64,000 nt of DNA, from NCBI GenBank assembly GCA_016868895.1, contig VGFK01000002.1, positions 186,001 to 250,000 on the forward strand, given 5' to 3'. Each line of letters starts with the position of its first letter. The first letter of the stretch is position 1. Positions 6,355 through 43,523 of the stretch are shown piece by piece. Source of the DNA: Bacteroidota bacterium. GTDB taxonomy: Bacteria; Bacteroidota; Bacteroidia; Chitinophagales; Chitinophagaceae. A program made the translations under genes and the position numbers. The notes under the pieces are model-generated. The model did no database searches. It was not told the origin of the DNA and worked only from the letters and a program-made list of their open reading frames with translations.

Positions 6355-6362
6355 TAACTTCG
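6355..6362 (+). promoter_or_regulatory. -7 element of SRP RNA promoter
   Basis: TAACTTCG differs from the Bacteroidota -7 consensus TAnnTTTG at one base. It ends 5 nt before the first paired base of the SRP RNA, the expected distance to a transcription start. No clear TTG -33 element is seen about 19 nt upstream, so the call rests on position. Confidence 0.5.
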
Positions 6363-6367
6363 CGCCG

Positions 6368-6465
6368 GCAGGTCTTGCACGACCAGCTCCTGTTGAACTC
6401 CCCCAGGACCGGAAGGTAGCAAGGGTAGACGGTTGAGCGGTGCGATGCAAGTAACCTGCTTTTTT
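6368..6465 (+). ncRNA. ffs: Small signal recognition particle RNA (4.5S-type)
   Basis: A bacterial small SRP RNA. The conserved domain IV is visible, with the tetraloop GGAA in CCGGAAGGTAGC and the asymmetric-loop bases on both sides (CCCCCAGGACC and GCAAGGGTA). The outer helix closes well: GCAGGT at 6368-6373 pairs with ACCTGC at 6454-6459, and CTTGCA at 6374-6379 pairs with TGCAAG at 6446-6451. A run of T residues at 6460-6465 directly after the closing helix acts as a terminator. The RNA binds Ffh to target nascent membrane and exported proteins. It lies between the plug-domain gene and fsa on the same strand. Confidence 0.92.
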
Positions 6466-37211: not shown

Positions 37212-39389
37212 CTATAGGTTGATCGTGATTCCAGCCATCACATTTCTGATGGCCATCGGGTAGTAAAAATTATTTCGAACCAATTCACCATTGTAGCGAT
37301 AGCTGTAGGTGTATCCATTTGGCGCATACAATGCATTCCACAGGTTGTTGATCTGAATTATTGCATCCACTGATTTTATTTTTCCCAGTCGAACGGTTTG
37401 ATTCCATTGAAGGTCTTGAACCAGAAAAGGGTTGAGGCTTCTGTCCATTCTCCCGGTATTGTCCATGAATTGTCTACCTGTGTATCGGGTAACCAATTTA
37501 ATCTCTGCCAATGTCCAGGGTCGATACACGAGGGTAGAGGCAGCTGTGATTGAAGGAGAAAAGGCTAGCGGTGCAGTGGCGACCAAAAGTGATTGTTGAC
37601 CTCCGGCATCGTAATCATCCCAATACTCCGTATGGTCGATGATTCGATTTCTGCTGATGGTAAAGTTGTGGTACAGGGACCAGCGGGAGGTTGGAGTCCA
37701 TGTAACTTCTACTTCCAGGCCAGTGCGGAAGCTATTGGAGACATTGGTTCGGGTGTATGCGCCAACGTCATTTATTTTTCCGGTGAGGACAAGCTGATCG
37801 CGGTAGCGCATATAATATAATGTGGCATTGATTCGCAAAGCAGTGGTGCTGTGTTCTATACCCAGTTCCCAATCGGAGAGCCGCTCTGCTTTGGGGGTTT
37901 GCGTAGCTCCTGCTTCAAAATCATCGCGATTGGGTTCTTTGTTTGCCACTGCATACGAAAGAAAGGCTGTCGTTCTTCCCTGTGTATAGCGTACCCCCCA
38001 TTTGGGGTTGATGAAGAGCCATTGCTGATCAATGGTAAGAGTAGGATTGTTCCTGAATCCATCGAGTGCATAGCTCATATTTCTGAGTTGCAGGTCACCA
38101 AATACGTTGAGGTCACCTTTTTTTTCAAGCCATTTTAAAAACAGGTGCTGTTCGTTTTTGCTGGCATCCAGGTCGTACCATTTATAATCTTTAAGGATAC
38201 CTGTCTTGGACCAAATAATTTTTCCAAAGTGCTGTCCATCGTATTCACTCATGCCTCCGCCCAGCATCACTTCTCGTTTATTGGAACGATGTTGAAGGTT
38301 GAGGTTTATTCCTTTATAGAGATTGTCCAGCCATAGCTGCCGAATCAGGTCGGTGGTTTCAATGCTCAATCCATTGATGCGAGGGTTGGGTAATCCATAA
38401 TTGGAATACGCTTGATCGGCTTTGTACTGTTCATAATATCCTTCACCCGTTGTTGCAAAAACAGCAGTATTGAAATTCCACGTGGAGGATATGCGTTTAT
38501 TGTAAAAAAGTTGGTAATGGGTTTGGGTATAGTTGTCCGTTTCATTTTCATAAGGGTCTCCTGGTTTCTCAGTGCCTGCTGCATTGAAGCGTCGGTTGGT
38601 GTTGAGTTGTTCCTCTGAAACGCCATACCAGGCTTGATAAGTAGTTTCATCCCCTGAGAATGCATTGAACCGCAACGAGGAGTTTTGCTTGATGCTGGCA
38701 GCAGAAAGGTAAAAAGATTGAAGTCGGCTCTTAGCCCGATCAATGTATCCATCGCTTTGAATACGGGAGAGTCTTCCATCTACGGTAAAACGATTGTTGA
38801 TGAGACCAGTACCAAATTTGATGGTGTTCTTCAGGGAACGAAATGAGCCTATACTGCTGGAGAGCTGTGCATATGCTGTATCGAGCACGTCATTGGTGAA
38901 CAGGTTGATGGTCGCTCCAAATGCACCGGGACCATTGGAGCTGGTTCCAACACCCCGCTGTATTTGAATATCGCTTACACTCGATAAGAAATCAGGCAGA
39001 TTGACCAGAAAAACTCCCTGTGATTCCGCATCGTTATAGGCAATGCCGTTCAAGGTGAAATTTATTCTGCTTGCATCGGTACCCCGTATTCGGATGCCGG
39101 TATACCCAATGCCGTTGCCTGCATCCGAGTTGGCGACTGCTCCTGGGAGTTGGCTCAGCAGCATGGGGATGTCTTGTCCCAGGTTATTTTTTTGTATGTT
39201 TTGTTTTGAAATATAACTCGTAGTAAACGGATAGGAGCGTTCTGCCCGAACGGCTTTTATCTCAATGGGCTCCATCCATTTTAAAATCGATGAATCTTTT
39301 GGACGCAGGGTATCAGGTTTGCCGACGGGTTGTCCGTGTGTGAAGAGAGCGAATAAAAAAAACGAGCAACTGAGCCAATGCTTTTTCAT
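37212..39389 (-). CDS. TonB-dependent outer-membrane receptor under thiamine control
   Basis: A 725-residue receptor. Residues 1-20 are a signal peptide. The plug domain runs to about 210 and contains YISKQNIQ, IRIRGTDASRINFTLNGI and the closing IQIQRGVGTSSNGPGAFGATINL. A 22-strand-type barrel follows and ends in an aromatic C-terminus (RNVMAGITINL). No CarboxypepD-like N-terminal repeat is present, so it is not a SusC. A TPP riboswitch immediately upstream implies repression when thiamine is plentiful, so uptake of thiamine or a precursor is the best inference. Start at 39389 rather than the longer frame from 39419, because the signal peptide begins there. Confidence 0.92.
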   Translation of the reverse strand: MKKHWLSCSFFLFALFTHGQPVGKPDTLRPKDSSILKWMEPIEIKAVRAERSYPFTTSYISKQNIQKNNLGQDIPMLLSQLPGAVANSDAGNGIGYTGIRIRGTDASRINFTLNGIAYNDAESQGVFLVNLPDFLSSVSDIQIQRGVGTSSNGPGAFGATINLFTNDVLDTAYAQLSSSIGSFRSLKNTIKFGTGLINNRFTVDGRLSRIQSDGYIDRAKSRLQSFYLSAASIKQNSSLRFNAFSGDETTYQAWYGVSEEQLNTNRRFNAAGTEKPGDPYENETDNYTQTHYQLFYNKRISSTWNFNTAVFATTGEGYYEQYKADQAYSNYGLPNPRINGLSIETTDLIRQLWLDNLYKGINLNLQHRSNKREVMLGGGMSEYDGQHFGKIIWSKTGILKDYKWYDLDASKNEQHLFLKWLEKKGDLNVFGDLQLRNMSYALDGFRNNPTLTIDQQWLFINPKWGVRYTQGRTTAFLSYAVANKEPNRDDFEAGATQTPKAERLSDWELGIEHSTTALRINATLYYMRYRDQLVLTGKINDVGAYTRTNVSNSFRTGLEVEVTWTPTSRWSLYHNFTISRNRIIDHTEYWDDYDAGGQQSLLVATAPLAFSPSITAASTLVYRPWTLAEIKLVTRYTGRQFMDNTGRMDRSLNPFLVQDLQWNQTVRLGKIKSVDAIIQINNLWNALYAPNGYTYSYRYNGELVRNNFYYPMAIRNVMAGITINL

Positions 39390-39462
39390 ACTGTTTTTGT
39401 TTTGTCCGATCGGGTACAATCAGTCAGGTGACAAAAACAGGAAAGGATGGAATGGGGGATTC

Positions 39463-39545
39463 GTCCTTCCCTGCGCAGGCATTATCCTGATCAGGTTCTA
39501 CGGGTTTGATCTCAGCTGCAGTTCTGCACTGCGGCACCCCGGAAC
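39463..39545 (-). ncRNA. TPP (THI-box) riboswitch aptamer
   Basis: On the minus strand the conserved THI-box blocks occur in order: CCGGGGTGCC, CTGAGATC, ACCC, GAACCTGATC, GGATAATGCC and GCGCAGGGA. P1 can form between GTTC (39542-39545) and GGAC (39463-39466). The aptamer ends about 73 nt before the receptor ATG. No strong terminator was found in that interval, so control may be through translation initiation. It senses thiamine pyrophosphate. Confidence 0.95.
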
Positions 39546-39549
39546 AGCA

Positions 39550-39557
39550 CAAAATTA
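39550..39557 (-). promoter_or_regulatory. -7 element of the riboswitch transcript
   Basis: TAATTTTG on the minus strand is an exact -7 consensus ending 4 nt before the first P1 base of the riboswitch. A CTG, one base off the -33 TTG, lies 18 nt upstream. Confidence 0.6.
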
Positions 39558-40388: not shown

Positions 40389-40415
40389 AAAAAGCAACCG
40401 AGTGGTTGCTTTTTT
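40389..40415. terminator. Bidirectional terminator between head-GIN gene and tRNA-fMet
   Basis: An 11-bp stem (AAAAAGCAACC / GGTTGCTTTTT) with loop GAGT. T tracts follow on the plus strand (five to six T residues) and, read from the other side, on the minus strand, so it can end both the head-GIN transcript and the tRNA transcript. Confidence 0.85.
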
Positions 40416-40416
40416 G

Positions 40417-40488
<72 letters not shown>

Positions 40489-40491
40489 CTG

Positions 40492-40522
40492 CAAAGTTAC
40501 CCCAATAAAGCCAAAGTCCAAA
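40492..40522 (-). promoter_or_regulatory. Promoter for tRNA-fMet
   Basis: On the minus strand: TTTG at 40522-40519, a 19-nt spacer, TAACTTTG at 40499-40492. This is a full Bacteroidota consensus promoter. Only 3 nt separate it from the mature tRNA 5' end, so the tRNA transcript has almost no leader. Confidence 0.75.
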
Positions 40523-40538
40523 ACAATTTTTAGAGTAG

Positions 40539-40546
40539 TAACTTTG
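40539..40546 (+). promoter_or_regulatory. -7 element of the era promoter
   Basis: TAACTTTG, an exact -7 consensus, 7 nt before the era ATG. It is part of a 15-bp sequence (GTAACTTTGCAGCGC) that is exactly mirrored at the tRNA promoter. No TTG occurs at the right distance upstream on this strand. Confidence 0.55.
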
Positions 40547-40553
40547 CAGCGCA

Positions 40554-41426
40554 ATGCGATCAGGTTTTATCAATATTATGGGTCGACCCAACGCGGGTAA
40601 AAGCACACTGCTGAATGCATTGGTTGGAGAGAAAATGGCAATTGTCTCACCCAAAGTGCAAACTACTCGACATCGCATTCGGGCGATTTTATCAGGGAAA
40701 GACTATCAAATCGTATTTTCAGATACGCCGGGCATTATTCAGCCTGAGTATAAGTTGCATGAACGCATGATGCATGCAGTCCGATCCGGCATATCCGATG
40801 CGGATATCTGCTTATTTCTTTTGGACGCACGGGATGATTTAGCCTTGATTGAAAACTGGATATCAGAATTGCTTCCATCACAATCCATATGGATTGTGGT
40901 GAACAAAGTGGACATCATTCATGAACAACGGAAACAAGAAATCAGTGCATTTTTTCAAGGGAAGCCCTACGTTAAACAACTTACGTTTATTTCAGCTGCA
41001 AAGCAGATGGGGTTGGATAAATTGTTGTCCGAATTGATTGATCATCTGCCGGAAGGTTCTGCATATTTTCCGGAAGATGCATTGACAGATATGCCTACTC
41101 GTTTTTTTGTGAGCGAACTCATCCGAGAACAAACTTATTTTTTGTACGAGGAAGAACTTCCTTATCAAATAGCAGTTGCCATCACAAAATTTGAAGAAAA
41201 AGAGCAGATAACGGCCATTGCTGCTGATATCATCGTGCACCGTGAATCTCAAAAAGGAATTATTCTGGGGGCAGGAGGAAGCATGATCAAGAAACTCGGA
41301 ATGGCATCGCGGGTATCCATTGAGAAATTTTTGGATAAAAAAGTATACCTCGAATTATTTGTCAAGGTCAGAGCCAATTGGAGGAATAATGAAACATTTC
41401 TCAGGGAATATGGGTATCTTCAATGA
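40554..41426 (+). CDS. era: GTPase Era
   Basis: A 290-residue ribosome-assembly GTPase. The G domain has GRPNAGKS (residues 10-17), the switch-I TTRHR, DTPG, and NKVD. The C-terminal KH domain binds the 3' end of 16S rRNA; its signature GGSMIKKLGMASRVSIEKFL and VYLELFVKVRANWR are present. Length is normal. A gene of unknown function separates it from der, the double GTPase also used in 50S maturation. Confidence 0.96.
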   Translation: MRSGFINIMGRPNAGKSTLLNALVGEKMAIVSPKVQTTRHRIRAILSGKDYQIVFSDTPGIIQPEYKLHERMMHAVRSGISDADICLFLLDARDDLALIENWISELLPSQSIWIVVNKVDIIHEQRKQEISAFFQGKPYVKQLTFISAAKQMGLDKLLSELIDHLPEGSAYFPEDALTDMPTRFFVSELIREQTYFLYEEELPYQIAVAITKFEEKEQITAIAADIIVHRESQKGIILGAGGSMIKKLGMASRVSIEKFLDKKVYLELFVKVRANWRNNETFLREYGYLQ

Positions 41427-41435
41427 CGCATGTAT

Positions 41436-42182
41436 ATGAGAAAATCACTTGCATATGTTTTTATCTTATTGCTGTGTGGTGGTACCCATTTTGGCTATGC
41501 ACAAAGCGGCTATTTGCCCCGCGAGGACTTCAGCGGTGCTGCGTATACCCTTGCCGTTCACGAGGTGAATTTTGAGGGCGTGCAAAATGAATCTAAGTTG
41601 CGTTTGCCCTATTCTTCCGTAAAAGGAAGTCCTTATTTTACAGAAACATTTCTGTTGGCTGATTTTTTCAACCAAAAAGGGAAAATGGTGGGTCGGCAAA
41701 TCGCCCGTATGAATCTTGCTACACAGGAAGTTCACTTCATTGGTGAGAAAGACCAGGAATACATTGCGCCTGGGGAGCTGTCGACAAAAGTTATATTTCA
41801 TTCCCCTGAGAAAGCGGATACGGCTGCTTTGTTTGTCCGGTATGTGCCTGGACTCCAATTAGGAGCAAAGCCACTTACAGATTTTGTTCAGCAACTGACG
41901 TTTGGAGAAGCGGTCCTTTATAAACATGCCAAGCGTTATGTTGCGTCCGCTGATTCAATGTTTGGTACCTTGAAACGGTATTTTTTTGCGACTTCGACGG
42001 GCTATTTCTTAAAACTCAATGCAGATCCACAATACATCAACAAGCTCTCACTCAATGCGCTGTTGAGCATGCTTCCTCAATCAGAGAGCATGGCAGCGTG
42101 GGTGAAAAGCAACAAAATCAACATTCGCCGCGAGGAGGATTTGATTGCATTGATTGATCATTGGAATAAAACAAGGCGTTGA
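41436..42182 (+). CDS. Uncharacterised exported protein between era and der
   Basis: A 248-residue protein with a clear signal peptide ending in Tyr-Ala-Gln (about residue 22). The mature part has mixed alpha/beta character with no transmembrane segment and only one Cys in the whole sequence, in the signal peptide. I do not recognise a family. The first ATG of the frame, at 41430, is two codons earlier; MRKSLAYVF fits a signal better. It follows era by 9 bp and precedes der by 33 bp on the same strand. Confidence 0.8.
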   Translation: MRKSLAYVFILLLCGGTHFGYAQSGYLPREDFSGAAYTLAVHEVNFEGVQNESKLRLPYSSVKGSPYFTETFLLADFFNQKGKMVGRQIARMNLATQEVHFIGEKDQEYIAPGELSTKVIFHSPEKADTAALFVRYVPGLQLGAKPLTDFVQQLTFGEAVLYKHAKRYVASADSMFGTLKRYFFATSTGYFLKLNADPQYINKLSLNALLSMLPQSESMAAWVKSNKINIRREEDLIALIDHWNKTRR

Positions 42183-42215: not shown

Positions 42216-43523
42216 ATGGCGGGATTTACATTGGCAATAGTAGGGCGTCCAAACGTAGGGAAAAGTACATTTTTTAATCGTCTGCTTGAACAACGGAAGG
42301 CAATTGTTGAGGATACACCCGGGGTAACCCGCGATCGTCAGTATGGAATTGCTGATTGGAATGGTAAGTCGTTCAACGTTATTGATACGGGTGGATTTGT
42401 TGCCGGAAGTGACGATGTTTTTGAAAAAGAGATTCGGAAGCAGGTATTGATTGCAGTTGAAGAGGCCAATGCCGTGTTGTTCATGGTGGACGCCAGTACC
42501 GGTATCATGCAGTTGGATGAAGAAATGGCAGAAGTCCTCCGGCCTTCCAAAAAACCGGTGTTCCTGGTTGTGAATAAAGTCGATAACAATTCCCGGTTGC
42601 TAGAAGCTGCCGAATTTTATTCACTCGGTTTTGAAAAGATATTCTTTCTCTCTTCCATGACTGGAAGTGGGACGGGAGAGGTCCTGGATGATGTCGCAGC
42701 ATTGATCCAAATTGAGGCAGATGCTCCAAATGAGGAGTTGCCTCGTATTGCGATCATGGGCCAACCCAACGTGGGCAAATCATCTTTGCTGAATGTGTTG
42801 GTGGGCGAGGAACGCACCATTGTAAGTGATATAGCCGGTACCACCCGTGATACCATTCATACCCATTACAACCTGTTCCAGAAGGAGTTTATTTTGATTG
42901 ATACTGCCGGTATTCGAAGAAAAATGAAAGTGCAGGAAGACTTGGAATTTTACTCTGTTATCCGCGCCATCAAAGCCATGGATGAGGCAGACGTTTGTTT
43001 GATCATGATTGATGCAGTCAAAGGAATTTCCCAACAGGATTTAAATATTTTTTCTCTGGCAGTAAAAAAAGGGAAGGGGATTGTGTTGCTGGTCAACAAA
43101 TGGGACCTGATTGAAAAAGATACCAAAACCGCAAAAACATTTGAGACAGAATTAAAATACCGGTTAGCGCCATTTACTGATTTACCTATTTTATTTGTTT
43201 CTGTAAATGATAAGACCCGAATTTTTAAAGTAATCGAAGTGGCATTGGAGGTGTACCAGAATCGTCGGCGCCGGATTCCTACTTCACGGTTGAACGAAGC
43301 CATGCTTCCATTTATAGAAGCGTATCGTCCGCCGGTGGTGAGGGGCAATTCAATTAAAATCAAATTCATCGCACAACTGCCAACTGTGGTACCCAGTTTT
43401 GCCTTCTATACCAATTATCCAGATGACATTAAAGGACCCTATCGCAATTATCTTGAAAATAAATTACGGGAATGTTTTCAATTCAAGGGGGTACCCTTAC
43501 GCGTATACTTTAGGAAAAAATAA
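42216..43523 (+). CDS. der: GTPase Der (EngA)
   Basis: A 435-residue protein with two tandem GTPase domains and a C-terminal KH-like domain, acting in 50S ribosomal subunit assembly. The first domain has GRPNVGKS (residues 10-17), DTGG and NKVD; the second has GQPNVGKS (residues 182-189), DTAG and NKWD. The C-terminal region contains VPSFAFYTNYPDDIKGPYRNYLEN. Length and layout are standard. It is followed by a hairpin that terminates the convergent porin gene. Confidence 0.96.
   Translation: MAGFTLAIVGRPNVGKSTFFNRLLEQRKAIVEDTPGVTRDRQYGIADWNGKSFNVIDTGGFVAGSDDVFEKEIRKQVLIAVEEANAVLFMVDASTGIMQLDEEMAEVLRPSKKPVFLVVNKVDNNSRLLEAAEFYSLGFEKIFFLSSMTGSGTGEVLDDVAALIQIEADAPNEELPRIAIMGQPNVGKSSLLNVLVGEERTIVSDIAGTTRDTIHTHYNLFQKEFILIDTAGIRRKMKVQEDLEFYSVIRAIKAMDEADVCLIMIDAVKGISQQDLNIFSLAVKKGKGIVLLVNKWDLIEKDTKTAKTFETELKYRLAPFTDLPILFVSVNDKTRIFKVIEVALEVYQNRRRRIPTSRLNEAMLPFIEAYRPPVVRGNSIKIKFIAQLPTVVPSFAFYTNYPDDIKGPYRNYLENKLRECFQFKGVPLRVYFRKK

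Follow-up and report, generated by a model that had tools for sequence, protein, structure and literature searches.

Probable overlapping divergent promoters between the initiator tRNA gene and era in Bacteroidota

The window, by which we mean the whole 64,000-nt stretch of Bacteroidota DNA that we analyzed, contains an initiator tRNA gene and era in divergent orientation, with 65 bp between them. The features of this region are:

40389–40414, no strand assigned: perfect 11-bp hairpin flanked by A/T runs, just past the 3' end of the tRNA gene; terminator-like, and probably a terminator
40416–40488, minus strand: initiator tRNA-Met (CAT) gene, from ARAGORN (Rfam RF00005, 66.4 bits)
40486–40500, minus strand: left arm of a 15-bp inverted repeat (the −7 box with its preceding base, and the tRNA start region)
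40492–40499, minus strand: putative −7 element of the tRNA promoter, TAACTTTG, matching TAnnTTTG
40519–40522, minus strand: putative −33 element of the tRNA promoter, TTTG (CAAA on the plus strand), with a spacer of 19 nt
40527–40531, no strand assigned: T-tract (an A-tract on the tRNA strand), at an UP-element-like position for the tRNA promoter, where it may act as one
40538–40552, plus strand: right arm of the 15-bp inverted repeat (the −7 box with its preceding base, and the era start region)
40539–40546, plus strand: putative −7 element of the era promoter, TAACTTTG, matching TAnnTTTG, 39 bp from the tRNA −7 element
40547–40553, plus strand: the seven bases between the era −7 box and the ATG, with a predicted leader of 2–3 nt
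40554–41426, plus strand: era, encoding the GTPase Era, 290 amino acids

Initiator tRNAs are marked by a CAT anticodon, a mismatch at positions 1/72, and three G:C pairs in the anticodon stem. The tRNA in the window has all three (a C1/A72 mismatch and a GGG/CCC anticodon stem, read from the sequence), so the first-pass annotation of this DNA was right to call it an initiator. Of the 30 tRNA genes found in the genome, which is represented by an assembly rated 95.8% complete, one other has a CAT anticodon (contig C7, 364–437). Because this gene begins with GGCGGGG and lacks the C at position 1, no initiator gene other than the one in the window was detected in the genome. The identity of era was also borne out (NCBIfam NF000908, 343.8 bits versus a cutoff of 237). 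We found no sign of another Rfam element between the two genes, as only the tRNA reaches its gathering score there; a sub-threshold match to asX2 at 40392–40450 was taken as chance. On the other side of era, a 250-amino-acid protein without an NCBIfam match (41430–42182, plus strand) is followed by der (42216–43523, plus strand; TIGR03594, 532 bits), which places two ribosome-assembly GTPases near each other.

The first-pass annotation drew attention to a 15-bp sequence, GTAACTTTGCAGCGC, at 40538–40552 (plus strand), with an exact inverted copy at 40486–40500 (minus strand) and 37 bp between them, and we found it just so. To put this in context, we searched 324 kb (the window and 260 kb of the same contig) for exact inverted repeats with spacers of 20–100. 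This is the only one with arms longer than 12 bp, and the three others all have arms of 12 bp. A first-order Markov control gave, over five runs, means of 2.2 repeats of 12 bp and 0.2 of 14 bp, and none longer. The repeat is not base-level chance, and part of its identity is fixed by the two promoter boxes that it contains. Six face-to-face pairs of TAHHTTTG (gap 0–60) are found in the 324 kb, compared to a mean of 1.25 in 20 random runs, and the tRNA/era pair is the only one of the six in which over 9 of the 15 bases match. Across the whole genome, GTAACTTTGCAGCGC has four sites with up to two mismatches, namely the two exact arms in the window and two sites with 2 mismatches. Near-matches are not enriched, since a reversed control pattern has seven. 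We also considered whether the two arms could pair as an RNA hairpin and rejected this, because each predicted transcript begins inside its own arm and heads away from the other.

In Bacteroidota, the consensus for the primary sigma factor (sigma-ABfr) is reported as TTTG at −33 and TAnnTTTG at −7 (PMC6847099, PMC7366714, PMC9723704). Both putative promoters in the window have the −7 consensus and the tRNA promoter has the −33 element as well; the relatives described below agree. Unlike typical sigma-ABfr promoters, the two face away from each other with an almost constant 39 bp between their −7 boxes, and the era promoter has no TTTG at −33. The first-pass annotation had noticed that only the tRNA side has this element, with a 19-nt spacer, and indeed the era side has GTCC at a spacer of 19 and AGTC at a spacer of 20. 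The missing TTTG lowers the chance that the era promoter belongs to the sigma-ABfr type, but does not exclude it. In Flavobacterium johnsoniae promoters, the −33 element is described as weak or not identified (PMC6847099).

The first-pass annotation also had the bases after the era box reach an era leader. Any such leader must be very short, as the ATG lies only 7 nt past the TTTG of the box. In F. johnsoniae, transcription is taken to start 4–5 nt after the −7 box for probable promoters (PMC6847099); the same distance here would give the predicted 2–3 nt. Short leaders are known in the phylum: about 3.7% of leaders in Bacteroides thetaiotaomicron are reported to be under 10 nt, and leaderless mRNAs are reported at 5.5% in F. 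psychrophilum (PMC9723704, PMC7366714). In a crude survey of the window's own genome (first ATG of long ORFs), 44 of 243 ORFs have a box and in 11 of these 44 it lies at most 10 nt from the ATG, so a leader this short may be nothing exceptional in this genome. On the other side, only 3 nt separate the tRNA box from the mature 5' end of the tRNA. An intact tRNA would need transcription to start at most 3 nt after the box, with a precursor leader of 0–3 nt. This is closer than the 4–5 nt of F. johnsoniae, which counts against the promoter model.

To examine conservation, we compared the regions upstream of era across related genomes; 6 of 137 regions were removed as duplicates. The genus set has 34 distinct regions from 34 of 37 genomes. 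We left out G014, G015, and G028 (a fragment or a weak match), as well as G041, which is from another family. Two tRNAs of the genus (in L018 and L023) were missed by ARAGORN and were placed by string match. Boxes were accepted up to 16 nt from the tRNA end and up to 20 nt from era. The initiator tRNA is divergent from era in 32 of the 34 regions and codirectional in two (L020 and L025). Among the 32 divergent loci, the gap between the −7 boxes is 39 bp in 25, 38 bp in three, 40 bp in three, and 49 bp in one. The box lies 3, 9, 10, or 12 nt from the tRNA and 7–10 nt from era. The proposal that TAACTTTG is a −7 element on both sides holds up well: the era box is TACCTTTG in 29 loci, TAACTTTG in two, and TACCTTCG in one, and it matches the consensus at 6/6 positions in 31 of the 32, while the tRNA box matches at 6/6 positions in 27 and at 5/6 in the other five.

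The best conserved block is CAAAACAATTTTTA. In the 25 loci with a gap of 39 bp, the plus-strand CAAA columns of the tRNA −33 element have C in 25, A in 18, A in 25, and A in 25, and positions 40528–40531 have T in 25, 25, 25, and 24. The corresponding columns on the era side of these loci contain no TTTG. The nearest relative (L002), whose Era protein is 82% identical, allows a finer comparison; among named relatives, a Chitinophagaceae MAG comes closest. In L002 the tRNA arm and the two TAACTTTG boxes are retained, and over the 58 bp that begin at the tRNA end and run through the era box there are just 3 differences. None of the 7 bases that follow the era box is shared, and there is a 1-nt length difference as well. 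With 55% mismatches at the third codon positions of era, the promoter block must be strongly constrained and the era leader is not. Purifying selection probably keeps both boxes and their spacing.

The 15-bp identity itself, whose loss in close relatives would by the first-pass annotation's own standard refute its reading, is absent from L002, which keeps CAGCGC on the tRNA side and has TGTATTGC on the era side. Nor does mirrored CAGCGC appear to be a shared signal: the window is the only divergent genus locus in which all 6 bases downstream of the boxes match, and the other 31 match at 4 of 6 at most. We asked if the arms are more alike within genomes than between them, using 30 distinct pairs from the genus, the 6 nt downstream of each box, and era sides shuffled among genomes. 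They are not (mean of 2.13/6 versus 2.04 after shuffling, p = 0.30, or p = 0.46 without the window; these permutation tests ignore kinship among loci).

These results bear on the idea that the arms are a regulator's binding site or a shared signal by which the tRNA gene and era are co-regulated, which the first-pass annotation raised. The arms are exact over 15 bp, their centers are 52 bp apart (about five helical turns), and both products act in translation. However, none of the other 31 divergent genus loci has the 15-bp identity, the arms do not co-vary outside the −7 core, and the genome has no further exact match to GTAACTTTGCAGCGC. We consider this idea very improbable. We reject the repeat as a conserved mirrored element or operator, given the lack of the 15-bp identity in other genus loci and of co-variation between the arms. 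The geometry suggests competition between the two promoters at least as much as co-regulation.

How, then, did the arms become identical in this genome? The tRNA promoters of this genome have a C-rich start region. C follows the TTTG directly in 20 of 22 tRNA promoters, and C is found at positions 4, 5, and 6 in 16, 17, and 16 of the 22. At 44 mRNA promoter-like sites, the same four positions have C less often (23, 13, 15, and 18 of 44). This shared bias in the start region raises the chance of matching arms. Nevertheless, among 966 pairs of a tRNA promoter and an mRNA promoter, only one matches at 6/6 downstream bases (the pairs of era with the two tRNA-Met genes were left out of this count), so coincidence is not a comfortable explanation. 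A related observation is that the tRNA promoters of this genome (L155–L184) share TAnnTTTG followed by C-n-n-(C or T)-C-C. A box is found within 60 nt of 22 of the 30 tRNAs, and in three of them (initiator Met, Ser-TGA, and Arg-CCG) it lies 3–6 nt before the mature 5' end, which would leave almost no 5' leader.

As an alternative to coincidence, a single event of template switching (quasi-palindrome correction) could have copied CAGCGC from the tRNA arm into the era leader in this lineage only. The pair of inverted TAACTTTG boxes is an imperfect inverted repeat, of the kind that quasi-palindrome mutation would perfect in one lineage, and template switching has been described as homogenizing the arms of inverted repeats (PMC8604942, PMC3820800, PMC7202029). 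Such an event could also account for the 7 of 7 changed bases and the 1-nt length change in the era leader, beside 58 bp with three differences, and for a 6/6 match that only one of the 966 other pairs attains. In the Sphingobacteriaceae, which are described below, two loci, L263 (CAGACC) and L233 (CATTCC), carry arms that are uncommon in sequence yet fully symmetric, compared to about 0.64 such pairs expected on shuffling. On the other hand, neither the genus nor the Sphingobacteriaceae (p = 0.21, 27 distinct pairs) shows an excess of arm similarity within genomes over 6 nt, so there is no statistical sign that template switching has acted repeatedly at tRNA/era loci. Also, an unconstrained leader would be scrambled anyway, just as the third codon positions of era are. 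We view a single template switch as a fair rival for the origin of this genome's copy, though an unlikely one; the identity of CAGCGC in an unconstrained era leader is most likely a coincidence, helped by the bias in the start region.

Leaving the arms aside, we examined the promoter pair beyond the genus. The family sample has 40 regions from outside the genus (the top regions by E-value, with a few skipped), of which 7 are divergent, 21 are codirectional, and 12 have no tRNA found within about 300 bp. Another list has 60 new regions, also the top ones by E-value with a few skipped. In 22 regions from other families of the order, 3 are divergent, 4 are codirectional, and 15 lack the tRNA. Lastly, an 80-genome sample of the phylum gave 20 regions (3 from the same family, 1 from the order, 10 from the class, and 6 from the phylum), with 8 divergent, 1 codirectional, and 11 without the tRNA. 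In this sample, the divergent arrangement is seen in 3/3 regions from the family, 0/1 from the order, 5/10 from the class (with one more codirectional), and 0/6 from beyond it. The divergent arrangement is not universal. A tRNA-Met lies beside era in the same direction in 67 regions (39 named, 21 from the family, 2 from the genus, 4 from the order's other families, and 1 from the class), which implies that the adjacency of tRNA-Met and era outlives their orientation.

We then measured the gap at another 17 divergent loci, of which 7 come from the family sample, 3 are same-family loci of the phylum sample, and 7 are named ones (the family is not stated for all of these). Exact box pairs are 37–40 bp apart in nine loci, 33 bp in two, and 12, 43, and 54 bp in one each, and three loci have no exact box pair. 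CAAA is found at a spacer of 20 in 9 of the 14 exact pairs and at a spacer of 19 in 2. Four of the nine loci at 37–40 bp have tRNA leaders of 45, 51, 86, and 96 bp, yet their gap is 39. The gap is 38–40 bp in 8 of the 17, and in 39 of 49 divergent loci when those of the genus are included, with tRNA-side leaders of 3 to 96 bp. A gap that holds steady as the leaders drift lends indirect support to a functional unit. Since the loci are related, the constant spacing must be partly inheritance.

A different and tighter arrangement is found in the Sphingobacteriaceae, the family of Pedobacter glucosidilyticus (G138, L150). We sampled 90 regions (L205–L294), which were not deduplicated: 86 are distinct over the last 120 nt. 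(L189 repeats L214.) In our search, the box distance was left free over 8–16, and the unusual era box TTTCTTTG was imposed; with that box, a mirrored element is found in 84 of the 90 loci (80 distinct), with the boxes 7 bp apart. The distance is the same in 84/84. ARAGORN finds a divergent tRNA-Met within about 300 bp in 84 of the 90 regions as well, but this is a different 84: L233, L261, and L209 have the mirrored element without a tRNA call, L227, L229, and L230 are the reverse, and L258, L292, and L234 have neither. Among the 84 mirrored loci, the era promoter has TTGG as its −33 at a 19-nt spacer in 83, and the tRNA promoter has TTTG as its −33 at a 20-nt spacer in 82. The −33 element of either promoter falls within the other's start region, so the symmetry of this inverted repeat arises from interleaving two copies of one type of promoter. 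At 37 of the 84 loci, the two arms agree at all 6 bases.

These data also bear on whether the era box matters at all. It could be that only the tRNA promoter is important, that the constant distance is inherited in a compact intergenic region, and that the era box is minor and does not interact with the tRNA promoter. This would fit the best conserved block, which could be explained by the tRNA −33 element and the UP-like A-tract, and the absence of TTTG at −33 of era. It would also fit L191, a member of the same class whose divergent boxes are 69 bp apart, which shows that such close spacing does not extend to all of the class. However, the era box retains a full consensus match in all but one of the 32 divergent genus loci, the 38–40 bp gap is largely kept across tRNA leaders of such different lengths, and the Sphingobacteriaceae sample keeps the −33 and −7 elements of both promoters. 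We regard it as unlikely that the tRNA promoter is all that matters.

Instead, we think it probable that the 65 bp between the tRNA gene and era hold two ordinary Bacteroidota housekeeping promoters (of the TTTG/TAnnTTTG type), back to back and overlapping, that are probably mutually exclusive and that would couple the initiator tRNA to era. The tRNA promoter would comprise the −33 TTTG, the A-tract behind it, and the −7 box, and the era promoter would comprise a −7 box with almost no leader. The T-tract at 40527–40531 falls inside the spacer of the predicted era promoter, and the era −7 box coincides with the expected position of the upstream part of a polymerase that occupies the tRNA promoter. 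By analogy with the usual footprint of the polymerase, such a polymerase would extend over the era box. If so, two polymerases should exclude each other, and the output of era should vary with the activity of the tRNA promoter.

We can compare this arrangement to systems that are already described. The bidirectional promoters of E. coli are reported to share a pseudo-symmetric −10 element, with starts mostly 18 bp apart, and with 10 and 23 bp also common (PMC12825309). As that report defines them, they do not include the pair in the window, which has two separate −7 boxes at a 39-bp gap. The start sites that we infer would be about 63–64 bp apart in the window and about 32–34 bp apart in the Sphingobacteriaceae sample. 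The window pair may still work like one bidirectional promoter, by mutual exclusion. In Proteobacteria, era is reported to be co-transcribed with rnc from one promoter (PMC10582724). That operon also ties the expression of era to another gene of the translation apparatus, but through a shared promoter rather than divergent ones. The synteny section of the same Era review names no tRNA as a neighbor of era. Overlapping divergent promoters are already known as a kind; for the pair of the initiator tRNA and era in Bacteroidota, we found no earlier report among the matches listed from the open-access literature.

We also speculate, more tentatively, that the distance-locked overlapping promoters of the Chitinophagaceae (39 bp) and the Sphingobacteriaceae (7 bp) form an exclusion switch, in which each firing of one promoter costs the other gene. 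This stronger claim is possible but doubtful. If it is true, the ratio of initiation capacity to 30S assembly would be set without a regulatory protein. If exclusion is real, then the geometry of the DNA alone would link the supply of initiator tRNA to the assembly of the small subunit, in a phylum that largely lacks Shine-Dalgarno sequences, and the pair would offer a simple, testable model of promoter competition that two families have kept. Even without exclusion, the reading of the repeat is corrected, and a C-rich start region is recognized as common to the tRNA promoters of this genome.

Two other RNA elements were found in the window. A Bacteroidales-type small SRP RNA lies at 6359–6465 on the plus strand (RF04183, 84.5 bits). 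A TPP riboswitch (39450–39551, minus strand; Rfam RF00059, 68.2 bits) is just upstream of a 735-amino-acid ORF on the minus strand (37212–39419), which, from reading its sequence, resembles a TonB-dependent outer-membrane receptor and is perhaps a thiamin-related transporter.
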